From assembly GCA_005790505.1 (NCBI GenBank), contig SXUP01000011.1, forward strand, positions 1-59,900: a DNA stretch of 59,900 nt, given 5' to 3'. Of this stretch, positions 15,004-19,010 are shown piece after piece. This stretch comes from Actinomycetota bacterium (GTDB lineage Bacteria > Actinomycetota > Acidimicrobiia > Acidimicrobiales > Ilumatobacteraceae). The notes under the pieces are model-generated. The model ran no database searches. It was given only the letters and a program-made list of their open reading frames with translations, and was not told the origin of the DNA. How positions within the stretch are numbered: position 1 is the stretch's first letter; the number at the start of each line of letters is the position of its first letter. The translations under genes and the position numbers were made by a program.

Positions 15004-15723
15004 CTACAGATGTCGGTCAAAAAGACCGACGCTTCTTAACTTGCGTTCAAGGTGGGCTTCCATCAGCGCCATTGCGAGTTGGTTCACTTCTCTCACCGCC
15101 GGAGACTCATCTAGGGTCAGGGCTGTGGCTAGTCCACCACTAGACACCTGACGCAATATATTGAGCGCCGCATCAGATACTGCAGTTCCAGAACGACATG
15201 ATCGACACAGGATTCCACCCTCTTGCATGTTGAGAGCGCAAAGTTCTGTCGAACTTCCACAACGTACGCAATCATCAAGGGCTGGTGCGACCCCTTCTGA
15301 CGAAAGTAGCTTCCAATAAAAAGCCCCGACAATCAACGGAGATGCAGCATCATTCAGTGAACGTAGCGCTCGCGACAGCATGGTGTAGACGTGCGGCACT
15401 GGTTCACGATCAGGGGTCAGTTTGTCGACCGCCTCAACCATCGACAAACCTTGCTCCAACCTTTTTAGATTTATTCTCAAAGCGGTATGAGTGTCGATCA
15501 AGTCGACTTGACGGACAGTGTCGAGATCGCGACCCCGATAAAGTTGCACGTCTACATGGCTGAGTGTTTCAAGACGAGCTCCAATACGCGATGTTGTTTT
15601 GCGGATACCCTTGGCAACTGCCCGAATTTTTCCCGAGTTTTCAGACAACATGACGACAATGCGATCAGATTCACCGAATTTATAACTGCGCAAAACCACC
15701 GCTTTTTCGCGGTAGAGACTCAT
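15004..15723 (-). CDS. recO: DNA repair protein RecO
   Basis: 239 aa. N-terminal OB fold (REKAVVLRSYKFGESDRIVVML) and a helical C-terminal domain with a zinc-knuckle CVRCG ... CRSC. RecO loads RecA onto SSB-coated DNA in the RecFOR pathway. Its ATG overlaps the stop of the UppS-like gene by 4 nt (ATGA), so the two are translationally coupled, and glyQS follows. The recO/uppS/era neighbourhood is a common actinobacterial arrangement. Confidence 0.95.
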   Translation of the reverse strand: MSLYREKAVVLRSYKFGESDRIVVMLSENSGKIRAVAKGIRKTTSRIGARLETLSHVDVQLYRGRDLDTVRQVDLIDTHTALRINLKRLEQGLSMVEAVDKLTPDREPVPHVYTMLSRALRSLNDAASPLIVGAFYWKLLSSEGVAPALDDCVRCGSSTELCALNMQEGGILCRSCRSGTAVSDAALNILRQVSSGGLATALTLDESPAVREVNQLAMALMEAHLERKLRSVGLFDRHL

Positions 15724-16370
15724 GAGTCGAGTCCCCCAAACCGTCTGTGGCGACGATCGAAATCGTCAACTGCAAGTTCTAGATGAGATGCCGACAAGTC
15801 ATCCCACTTCAAGTCCAAGAACACGAGTTCGCTGTATCCCAGTTCCCATATCAAAGAACTTGGCAATTGGTCAGGCGGTCCGAATACTACAACTAAATCT
15901 GGTTCAACATCGGCTGGTGTCATTACGCAAGTTGCCAATACTGATTCGTTGAGGTCCTCAGGCCCCATTTGGTCAGCACGCAAGGACTCAAGAATCATCG
16001 CGAAACGAATCCTTCCTTGCGGAGATGGATCAATAATCACACTCAAGCCCGATGACTTCTGCCAAACACCACGCATGAGATGCTCGGTTCCAACAAGCCC
16101 GAGAGGTACCGCGTCTCCAATGACTTTGAAAAATTCTTCTCTCTCGGCAACCGTCAAAACATCACCTCCGTGAGGGAGAAGCGTGATCCAGCGTGCACCT
16201 CCGACTGAAGCCCCCCGAACTATGTCATCAAGACGGCTCCCCCAGTCACTAGACCCAAAATTTCGCCATTCTTGGGGGGTGCCCGCAGCGATCACGACAT
16301 GCTCAAGTGGAGATAATCCGAGCGAGTCGCTCTGGGCTTTTTTTGAAGGCGACTTTTTTTGGATACCCAT
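15720..16370 (-). CDS. UppS-like protein lacking the catalytic loop (NgBR/Nus1-like partner candidate)
   Basis: 216 aa. The whole chain aligns by eye with undecaprenyl diphosphate synthase, but the active-site loop is gone: HVVIAAGTPQEW (24-35) stands where family members have HVAxIMDGNGRW, and VFGPPDQLPSSLIW (162-175) where they have RTSGExRLSNFLLW. Retained are the late core GYSELVFLDLKWDDL (178-192), including Glu181, and the C-terminal DFDRRHRRFGG, with R210-F211-G212 as the RxG motif that completes the active site across the dimer. This is the residue pattern of the non-catalytic NgBR/Nus1 subunit, including its FGPxD segment as I recall it. The adjacent divergent uppS lacks exactly these parts. 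It is coupled by ATGA to recO. The family relation is clear; the partner role is inference. Confidence 0.82.
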   Translation of the reverse strand: MGIQKKSPSKKAQSDSLGLSPLEHVVIAAGTPQEWRNFGSSDWGSRLDDIVRGASVGGARWITLLPHGGDVLTVAEREEFFKVIGDAVPLGLVGTEHLMRGVWQKSSGLSVIIDPSPQGRIRFAMILESLRADQMGPEDLNESVLATCVMTPADVEPDLVVVFGPPDQLPSSLIWELGYSELVFLDLKWDDLSASHLELAVDDFDRRHRRFGGLDS

Positions 16371-16443
16371 CTTCTTAGTCTCGCACTCAAATCTGCATCA
16401 GTGCGACTACTTGGCACAACCCTCTCAGTAGTGTGGCGTTGTT

Positions 16444-17124
16444 ATGTCCACGCCTCCAAGACCCCTCCATGTGGCCTGCATTATGGACGGAAACGGACGC
16501 TGGGCACGGCGGCGTGGGTTGCCCAGAACCGACGGGCATACCGCTGGAGAAGAGACTCTTGCCACCATCGTGCGCGCCGCTGCCGAGCGCAATGTCGGGT
16601 GGCTGACAGTGTTTGGGTTTTCCACCGAAAATTGGGTGCGACCGCGAACCGAAGTTCGTCACATCTTGTCGCTACATAAAAAACTCTTCGGCCGCATCAC
16701 TGAACTCAACGACAAAAATGCCTCAATTCGATGGATCGGTCGTCCGTTTGATGAGCCTGGTGCTCTGACGCCGGTCTTCATCCAAAAAGCAATCAAAAAG
16801 GCAATCGCCGACACCGCAGGAAATTCAGGATTGGTGGTGACTGTGGCTTTTGATTACGGCAGCCGAGCCGAACTCGTCCGAGCATCCCAGATCGCTTTGC
16901 GTTCCGCAGAGGCAATCACCCCTGACTTATTATCCGCCAATATGTACGACCCCAGTGTCCCGCCAGTAGATGTCGTTGTACGAACCTCGGGCGAAGCCAG
17001 AATCTCAAATTTTTTGCTCTGGCAAATTGCAGGTGCCAAGGTTTACTTCACCGAGCGCACTTGGCCTGATTTCAACGCCTCCGAATTAGATGCTGCAATT
17101 GCACTTGTGAATTCGAACATCTAG
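16444..17124 (+). CDS. uppS: Undecaprenyl diphosphate synthase, catalytic subunit lacking RxG tail
   Basis: cis-Prenyltransferase that adds isopentenyl units to farnesyl diphosphate, making the lipid carrier for cell-wall synthesis. 226 aa against about 250 usual. Catalytic features are present: D15 in MDGNGRWA (14-21), GFSTENW (58-64), AFDYGSRAEL (135-144), RTSGEARISNFLLWQ (180-194) and WPDF (207-210). Two expected features are missing. The chain stops at ALVNSNI, about 20 residues before the usual ERRFGG tail, and WQIAGAKVYF has K199 where the family has Glu (E. coli E213 by memory). The divergent neighbour encodes both missing elements. dinG follows after 2 nt. No Shine-Dalgarno; a TAGTGT box lies 9 nt before the ATG. 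A sequencing frameshift at the 3' end was considered, but no RxG coding sequence follows in another frame before dinG. Confidence 0.93.
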   Translation: MSTPPRPLHVACIMDGNGRWARRRGLPRTDGHTAGEETLATIVRAAAERNVGWLTVFGFSTENWVRPRTEVRHILSLHKKLFGRITELNDKNASIRWIGRPFDEPGALTPVFIQKAIKKAIADTAGNSGLVVTVAFDYGSRAELVRASQIALRSAEAITPDLLSANMYDPSVPPVDVVVRTSGEARISNFLLWQIAGAKVYFTERTWPDFNASELDAAIALVNSNI

Positions 17125-17126
17125 CC

Positions 17127-19010
17127 ATGACACCCAATGCTGGCGAACAAGCCGTGATCGCACTTCACCGTGTCACTGCAAGTCTTGCAGGATCAGAAGA
17201 GCGTCCTGGACAAGACGACATGACACGGGCGATTGCAGACGCATTAGCCCAGAGGCGGCACATCATCGCCCAAGCCGGAACAGGCATCGGAAAATCACTC
17301 GCTTACTTGGTGCCTGCAATCTTGAGTTCAAAAAAAACAGTCGTCGCAACGGCAACAAAAGCGCTCCAAGACCAACTTAATCGACAAGATTTGCCCCAAC
17401 TAGCAAAGCATCTCGGAATCGACTTTTCATGGGCAGTGGTCAAGGGTCGAAACAACTATGTCTGTCTGCAGCGCCTTGACGAACTCCAAAAGACCAACGA
17501 TCAGTTTGACTTTGATGAGTTGAGCGAGCGATCCAAACGCGAAGTCAAAGATGTCATTGCGTGGGCAAAAAAGACAAAAACTGGAGACATGGAAGAACTG
17601 CCAAATGCCGTCCTGGACCGCACGCGGCTTGCCGTCACTGTCCAGAGCGACGAATGTCCAGGAGCTTCAAAGTGCCCGATTGGCGAGCGTTGTTTTGCTG
17701 AAAGAGCTCGTGATAACGCGGCTGCATCTGCTGTCACGGTCGTCAATCTTCATCTCTATGGTCTACACATTGCAGGAGGTGGTGGTCTGTTGCCGGTTCA
17801 CGACATTGTGATTTTTGACGAGGTGCACCAACTTGAGGCAATCATGAGCGACACCGTTGGAGCGCAACTCAATCCAAGCACTTTTGCTGCTTTGGCTGCC
17901 GTGATTCGCCGAATTCTCACAAGTGCCACTACTGACGATCTTCTCAACGCTTCTGACAAACTCAGCGTGGCCCTTTCACCCCACGTCGGCAAAAGACTCT
18001 CCAGCCCCTTGCCCGACTTTGTCGTCACTCCGCTCAATCAAGCCCGCCTTGCTCTCAACGATTTACTCAATGCCTTGCGCAACATCACCTCTGACGACCT
18101 TGACACGAGTCAACGGCGTCAGCGCGCCCAGTCCCAGTGCAACCGACTTGCGGAGCAGATTGACGTTGCCCTTGGAATGGTCAATAACTATGTCGCCTAT
18201 GTGGAAGGATCTCCTGAACGACCTTCTCTGCGCATTAGTCCTCTTAGCGTAGGAAATGTTCTTGACACCGCGGTCTGGCAGGACCATCTCGCAATTCTCA
18301 CAAGTGCCACAGTGCCCATGACGCTCCCGTCTCGGGTGGGTCTGCCCCTCGAACGAACAGATGAAATTAGTGTTGATAGCCCTTTTGACTACGAAAAAAA
18401 TGCACTTCTATATTGCTCACCTGAATTTCCGGATCGCAACTCACGAGAGTTCGAAGAATTCGTACACGACGAACTTGAAGCTCTTATTACAGCGGCCGGT
18501 GGCCGCACGCTGGCGCTTTTCACGAGCAACAAAGCCTTGAACGCGGCAACTGCAGCCTTGCGTTTGCGCGTACCATTTCCGATTCTGACTTCTGCTGAAA
18601 ATACCCGCTCCCAAATGATTAAAATCTTTCTTGAAGATGAAGCATCTTGCATCTTTGCGTCACAATCATTTTTCCAAGGAGTTGACCTCCCTGGTCGAAC
18701 GCTTTCCCTTGTTGTTCTTGACAAACTTCCGTTCCCGCGACCCGACGACCCATTGCTTGAGGCCCGCCGTGACGCCGTTGGCCGCCAGGATAGTTTCGGA
18801 CTTATTGACTTACCCCTCGCCGCCACATCATTGGCTCAAGCTGCGGGCCGACTGATACGCAGTACCACCGATATGGGCGTTGTGGCGGTGCTTGACAGAC
18901 GACTTGCGACGATGAATTATCGCTCCAAATTGCTCGGAGTGATGCCCCCCATGACACGAACTCGCAAGCGTGAAGAAGTCGAAAATTTTTTGCGCCGTAT
19001 CACTCAATGA
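17127..19010 (+). CDS. dinG: DinG/XPD-type ATP-dependent DNA helicase
   Basis: 627 aa SF2 helicase without an exonuclease domain. Walker A is AQAGTGIGKSLAY; the DEVH box is VIFDEVHQLE. Four cysteines, one in NNYVCLQRL and three in ECPGASKC/GERC, form the iron-sulfur cluster site typical of DinG/XPD. C-terminal motifs include SFFQGVDLPG and QAAGRLIRS (motif VI). Unwinds 5'-3' at damaged or R-loop DNA. Starts 2 nt after the uppS stop, so it is in the same transcript. Converges on era. Confidence 0.93.
   Translation: MTPNAGEQAVIALHRVTASLAGSEERPGQDDMTRAIADALAQRRHIIAQAGTGIGKSLAYLVPAILSSKKTVVATATKALQDQLNRQDLPQLAKHLGIDFSWAVVKGRNNYVCLQRLDELQKTNDQFDFDELSERSKREVKDVIAWAKKTKTGDMEELPNAVLDRTRLAVTVQSDECPGASKCPIGERCFAERARDNAAASAVTVVNLHLYGLHIAGGGGLLPVHDIVIFDEVHQLEAIMSDTVGAQLNPSTFAALAAVIRRILTSATTDDLLNASDKLSVALSPHVGKRLSSPLPDFVVTPLNQARLALNDLLNALRNITSDDLDTSQRRQRAQSQCNRLAEQIDVALGMVNNYVAYVEGSPERPSLRISPLSVGNVLDTAVWQDHLAILTSATVPMTLPSRVGLPLERTDEISVDSPFDYEKNALLYCSPEFPDRNSREFEEFVHDELEALITAAGGRTLALFTSNKALNAATAALRLRVPFPILTSAENTRSQMIKIFLEDEASCIFASQSFFQGVDLPGRTLSLVVLDKLPFPRPDDPLLEARRDAVGRQDSFGLIDLPLAATSLAQAAGRLIRSTTDMGVVAVLDRRLATMNYRSKLLGVMPPMTRTRKREEVENFLRRITQ

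Follow-up and report, generated by a model that had tools for sequence, protein, structure and literature searches.

Two divergent UppS-like genes with complementary motifs in the Ilumatobacteraceae: a candidate heteromeric cis-prenyltransferase

The stretch of DNA considered here (the window) is 59,900 nucleotides of contig SXUP01000011.1, assembly GCA_005790505.1, from a member of the Ilumatobacteraceae, a family of aquatic actinobacteria. In it lie two divergent genes, A and B, both of whose products are related to UppS, the cis-prenyltransferase of bacteria, usually one protein that pairs with itself. The homodimeric enzyme carries the DGN loop, RTSGE, an interface glutamate and a C-terminal RxG all in one chain. 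Neither A nor B does so. What each has lost the other has kept, and I argue below, as a first-pass annotation of the window had suggested, that the two are probably the parts of a single enzyme.

Complementary motifs in A and B

The two genes and their motifs are laid out as follows. Counts are over distinct, 3'-complete genes of each type (91 A and 99 B). Alignment A1 holds A proteins, without the 5'-truncated L038 and L066 but with L049 and L040, which are cut by contig ends; alignment A2 holds B and its relatives, 31 members in all.

16444..17124, plus strand: gene A, candidate catalytic-type UppS subunit, 226 aa, without the C-terminal RxG
15720..16370, minus strand: gene B, putative non-catalytic UppS-like subunit of UppS fold, 216 aa, with an RxG tail
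16371..16443, no strand: A/B divergent intergenic region, common to both genes, 73 bp
16486..16503, plus strand: DGNGRW of A, residues 15-20, the diphosphate/Mg loop (within MDGNGRWA); D15, G16, N17, G18, R19 and W20 invariant in A1
16618..16635, plus strand: FSTENW of A, residues 59-64; invariant in A1
16981..16995, plus strand: RTSGE of A, residues 180-184, motif of the isopentenyl diphosphate (IPP) site; 91/91 A
17038..17040, plus strand: K199 of A, at the lost conserved Glu of AYSELVF; Glu lost in 87/91 A
16266..16289, minus strand: AAGTPQEW of B, residues 28-35, replacing the DGNGRW loop; DGNG in 0/99 B
15870..15884, minus strand: FGPPD of B, residues 163-167, replacing RTSGE (compare KFGPVD of human NgBR); RTSGE in 0/99 B
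15828..15830, minus strand: E181 of B, retained interface Glu (GYSELVF); invariant in A2, 99/99 B
15735..15743, minus strand: R210-F211-G212 of B, C-terminal RxG (tail RRFGGLDS); invariant in A2, RFGG in 99/99 B

The annotation had credited A with D15, FSTENW and RTSGE and with a lysine at 199 in place of the conserved glutamate, and B with GYSELVF and RRFGG but no DGN loop or RTSGE; the open reading frames of 226 and 216 codons bear this out. It went astray in placing the end of A about 20 residues short of the RxG. The chain runs 16 residues beyond WPDF and then stops; in 27 of 28 complete UppS of the order, 17 residues separate WPDF from the RxG (the exception, L009, reads RLFG). A thus retains a diverged last helix, with only the final few residues, RxG among them, gone.

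Relatives repeat the pattern. DGNGRW is found in 89/91 A, the two without it being the A of L038 and L066, whose 5' ends are missing, and the tails of 89/91 A have no R-x-G. Some of these tallies are partly circular, because 80 named contigs were found with patterns containing the glutamate or RR[HN]R, and this touches the counts of B residues and of co-occurrence. When those contigs are set aside and only loci not fetched through B's motifs are counted, the glutamate is lost in 47/49 A, and both it and RFGG are present in 50/50 B. That the same split recurs across the family makes the complementary losses more than chance. N63 and R66 of A are also invariant in A1 and, lying at the same offset as D15 from D34 of human DHDDS, probably correspond to N82 and R85 of that protein.

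Profile scores tell the two genes apart as well. A scores 208.9 bits against Pfam PF01255, over positions 1-209 of 219 in the model (cut-off 27 bits), and 191.1 bits against NCBIfam TIGR00055, above the curated cut-off of 109.55. B scores 38.6 bits against the former, over positions 143-219, and 40.2 bits against the latter, below its cut-off. All 31 members of A2 match PF01255 at 0.001 or better and match no other Pfam family. With A passing the NCBIfam UppS model and B failing it, the split would probably go unnoticed in automatic annotation.

Conservation (1 = fully conserved) runs in opposite directions along the two proteins. In A the N-terminal part, up to the RTSGE strand, scores 0.84 and the stretch from WPDF onward 0.66, whereas in B the corresponding values are 0.59 and 0.83. 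Complete UppS of the order (alignment A3, without 2 of 24 sequences on which the start-finding pattern failed) is even throughout, at 0.80 and 0.79. Each chain is thus constrained where the other has decayed. Within the N-terminal part of B, the segment HVVxxGGTPxEW that replaces the DGN loop (16266-16301 of the window) is itself conserved, at 0.83 over 12 columns, which suggests that it has a structural role of its own.

B is nonetheless no C-terminal fragment. AlphaFold single-chain models of A and B are confident, with a predicted local distance difference test score (pLDDT) of 86.7 and 87.9, and the model of B resembles UppS over residues 18-208 (Z 12.9, root-mean-square deviation 3.5, 173 residues aligned to 2e9a), which points to a whole UppS fold. 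The A model matches a UppS structure with E 8e-21. With B as query, the best 50 rows from Foldseek and the best 50 from VIA-align are all UppS or other cis-prenyltransferases; the absence of NUS1/NgBR chains from these best 50 rows says nothing either way.

Distribution and origin of the pair

A search of the source genome (2.01 Mb, 97.4% complete) with PF01255, a model positive in 14/14 control genomes, finds A and B and nothing else, in keeping with the annotation's expectation that there would be no third, complete uppS. The same genome holds two Glycos_transf_4 proteins and one BacA/UppP, enzyme types that use or recycle the polyprenyl carrier of the cell wall. That carrier must therefore come from the pair, unless the assembly lacks a gene. 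Three single-contig genomes, of 4.78, 4.83 and 4.97 Mb, also carry both genes.

The pair extends through the family. PF01255 matches are found in 190 of 200 family genomes, and a match to the B profile (1e-15) in 182, among them G287, G295 and G325, where it is a complete UppS that matches. Of the 79 high-quality genomes (at least 90% complete, at most 5% contaminated), 74 have two PF01255 matches, one has three and four have one. The three belong to G008, whose A is broken across contigs. The single matches are complete UppS in G287 and G295; in G197 B starts at a contig edge, and in G364 A is present and B is crossed by a run of N. The B profile matches in 78 of the 79, G287 and G295 again counting through their complete UppS. 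Among the matches listed, at least 24 of the 27 genera sampled include a genome that combines two PF01255 matches with one to the B profile. Three matches occur in five family genomes (G006, G339, G374 and G398 besides G008): G398 carries two A and two B, and the candidate third UppS of G006 proved to be an incomplete A-type frame at the edge of a contig. A few A matches are listed as running through a stop codon (G337, G342 and G353 in the family; G033 and G138 in the class sample); the frames of the last two, once fetched, are open.

Beyond the family the picture changes. A-like proteins (A1 profile, 1e-78) are found in 18/246 genomes of the class and B-like proteins (A2 profile, 1e-27) in 9/246 genomes of the phylum, all of them Ilumatobacteraceae, at thresholds strict enough to miss a separate or more diverged pair; independent splits elsewhere were not searched for. 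Twenty-four genomes from other families of the order have one UppS each, spanning positions 1-219 of the model. Twelve further genomes of the order comprise two with a single copy and ten with more than one PF01255 match, and nine of these ten carry two complete copies (the other, G204, has a complete copy and two fragments). It is by comparison with those nine that A and B can be rejected as ordinary paralogues. Named relatives carrying the pair are metagenome-assembled genomes (MAGs) labelled acIV, Ilumatobacteraceae or Acidimicrobiaceae. Some public MAG records with the pair bear titles such as Bifidobacterium breve or Ferrithrix thermotolerans DSM 19514, organism names that are apparently wrong (L080, L084, L104, L106, L108, L112, L114, L120 and L123).

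Among loci retrieved independently of B, every distinct A that has 900 nt or more of sequence upstream is accompanied by a divergent B (48/48). Of five genomes with A only, one has its B interrupted by a run of N, a contig end cuts B short in another and falls at A in two more, and in the last, G412, B is decayed. The co-occurrence that the annotation proposed as a check thus holds at every testable locus of that set and fails, on the face of it, in G412.

How the pair came about can be judged from its neighbours.

15004..15723, minus strand: recO, downstream of B, marker of the ancestral uppS-recO locus; identified by TIGR00613, over cut-off, and by synteny
17127..19010, plus strand: DinG/YoaA-type helicase gene, downstream of A and bounding the locus on that side; identified by synteny

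B's stop overlaps the start of recO, and the stop codon of A lies 2 nt ahead of the DinG/YoaA-type gene, which matches the NCBIfam YoaA and DinG models, every one below its cut-off. The gene order in the family is glyS-recO-B facing A-dinG. In the order's other families, uppS lies upstream of recO and in the same direction in 22/24 loci; the neighbour on its far side is a divergent DinG-type gene in seven and era in four (short flanks limit these counts). B adjoins recO in 80/80 named contigs. B therefore occupies the ancestral place of uppS, and A is the inverted copy. G287 (L155/L167), filed in the same family, still shows dinG-uppS-recO-glyS with a complete UppS, and is either an early branch or misplaced.

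In trees, A forms one clade with support of 100 and a stem of 3.4 changes per column, falling inside the UppS of the order with moderate support (88-94). When both genes are placed in one tree with complete UppS, each forms a single group, again with support of 100. A clade uniting A and B is not rejected (p of 0.77 in the approximately unbiased test, p-AU); given several long branches among the B, I claim no sister relation.

One genus has lost the pair. In g172, represented by three genomes (loci L156 in G295, L157 in G325, and L173-L175), the DinG-type gene and recO are adjacent, with neither A nor B between them. In two of the three a complete UppS lies unlinked to this locus and is of a distinct type, reading RTSSE and WHSTYAEFVF; the third (81% complete) has no match. 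This joint loss is what a two-part enzyme predicts. The unlinked type resembles the UppS of two other families (L025, L026). G373 (72% complete) shows that other UppS type too, and no recO match.

A proposed obligate heteromer and its alternatives

My proposal, to which I give a probability of about 0.86, is a cis-prenyltransferase that works only as a heteromer, with A as its catalytic chain and B as its non-catalytic one, and that produces the polyprenyl diphosphate carrier of the cell wall, presumably undecaprenyl diphosphate (C55). With its DGN loop, FSTENW and RTSGE, A would hold Mg and both substrates, the allylic diphosphate and IPP. B, a putative pseudoenzyme of UppS fold, would pair with A and supply in trans the interface glutamate (E181) and the C-terminal RxG (R210-x-G212), so that each A-B dimer would have one working active site. 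Association and activity only in company are inferred, with co-occurrence and joint loss as the genetic evidence, and so are product and mechanism. In the human enzyme the C-terminus of NgBR, its RxG tail, is described as crossing the dimer interface into the active site of DHDDS, where N82 and R85 contact it (PMC7573591). The best reading of its history is an inverted duplication of uppS, the ancestral gene of a homodimer upstream of recO, after which the copies would have lost opposite halves of the active site and degenerated into obligate partners, in convergence with DHDDS/NgBR. Three further things support the annotation's heteromer: B in the ancestral uppS slot, the joint loss of A and B in one genus, and a partition of residues like that of the human pair.

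Several observations weigh against the proposal. The archaeal protein MM_0014 of Methanosarcina mazei is reported to be active without RXG and to crystallise as a homodimer (PMC8131916), so loss of RxG by itself is no proof of dependence. The glutamate is kept in 4/91 A (L151, L152, L112 and L117), and an R-x-G stands in the tail of 2/91, in L097 one residue off the usual place. In G298 (89% complete) the B match is listed as containing one internal stop. In G412 (77% complete) A is intact and the B copy carries three stops, and of all the observations this one speaks most for A working alone. An intact B may lie in the part of G412 that the assembly lacks, or that lineage may no longer need one. 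Between the A and the decayed B of G412 (L184, L191) is an insert of about 2.4 kb, whose frames resemble membrane proteins.

These same facts, save G298 and the R-x-G tails, are what one would cite for the best-surviving alternative, an unlikely one: that A functions as a homodimer, managing without RxG and the glutamate, and that B is a pseudoenzyme apart from it, doing something regulatory or otherwise different, for example with recO, which it overlaps. DHDDS alone, moreover, is described as forming homodimers, if poorly active ones (PMC7573591). It is hard on this view that the two trans-acting elements lost by A should be just those invariant in B. Nor does it expect a divergent B at all 48 testable A of the loci retrieved independently of B, or the disappearance of both genes together from g172.

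Less likely still is that the heteromer makes something else: a cis-polyprenyl diphosphate that is shorter, longer or branched and serves another purpose. Chain length is not readable from the sequences of A and B, and the titles of structures in the Protein Data Bank (PDB) tell of other members of the superfamily that make short or irregular products. But a genome that keeps two Glycos_transf_4 proteins and BacA/UppP, types of enzyme that use and recycle the carrier, has no further PF01255 match from which to make it, and the locus of the pair is the ancestral locus of uppS. That A and B are decaying remnants or an assembly artefact, the real UppS being elsewhere or missed, can be dismissed, even granting that the genome falls short of 100% completeness and that B is very divergent, for the pair stands in three single-contig genomes and most sampled genera, with long open frames and invariant residues in both proteins.

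If the proposal of an obligate A/B heteromer is true, its independent bacterial origin would show which elements of a symmetric enzyme two chains can divide between them. The origin would trace to one duplication at a known locus, with relatives that have complete UppS all around, and the route from homodimer to heteromer becomes directly testable. Mutations in DHDDS/NgBR cause disease (PMC7573591), and A/B could serve as a simple soluble model for the mechanics of that enzyme.

Comparison with known systems

A/B is related to the bacterial homodimeric UppS/IspU (TIGR00055, PF01255), of the same family, fold and locus, which is presumably the ancestral type and persists in sister families. It differs in having all motifs in one chain, so that a single gene is enough. 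Division of labour between chains has a bacterial precedent among trans-prenyltransferases, whose fold is different from that of cis-prenyltransferases. HepS/HepT and HexA/HexB are prenyl-chain synthases made of catalytic and helper chains (PMC7839719), but they are of this trans type and make other products. Another prokaryotic likeness is MM_0618/MM_1083 of Methanosarcina mazei, two cis-prenyltransferase homologues that jointly make C45-50 products (cited in PMC8131916). That pair is archaeal, and it is likened to A/B by description, not by residues or phylogeny.

A review places homodimeric cis-prenyltransferases in bacteria and plants and heteromers in eukaryotes (PMC7839719), and in the part of the literature searched, mostly listings, no heteromeric cis-prenyltransferase was found in Bacteria. 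A/B would quite likely be the first in that domain, an essential homodimer split by inverted duplication and convergent, residue for residue, on DHDDS/NgBR, making the cell-wall carrier with possibly an altered chain length or regulation.

The likeness to the eukaryotic enzymes DHDDS-NgBR and Rer2-Nus1 is one of plan: one chain has the catalytic motifs and is without the glutamate and RxG, and its partner has the fold, the glutamate and the RxG. The residues compared are human, and they are as the annotation had given them. DHDDS reads HSCLVF, with cysteine at the position of the glutamate; NgBR reads PDLVLKFGPVD...RLTEIVSL...QRLGK, keeping both glutamate and RxG. NgBR has no activity of its own, as B has no catalytic motifs, and it replaces RTSGE in much the same way (PDLVLKFGPVD against PDLVVVFGPPD in B). 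Yeast Nus1 has asparagine where the arginine of RxG would stand (PMC7839719). A/B differs from DHDDS/NgBR in being bacterial, in the shortness of A, which is without the extra C-terminal domain of DHDDS, and in its product, presumably C55 rather than C85-100. The origins differ too. The B profile finds UppS of E. coli at 3e-19 and NUS1 at 9e-4, and B lies at a bacterial locus, so the likeness to NgBR is convergent. On these profile scores and the ancestral bacterial locus, with eukaryotic sequences lying outside the tree, B is not an orthologue of Nus1/NgBR. The annotation's bacterial counterpart of Nus1/Rer2 therefore stands as an analogue and not as an orthologue.

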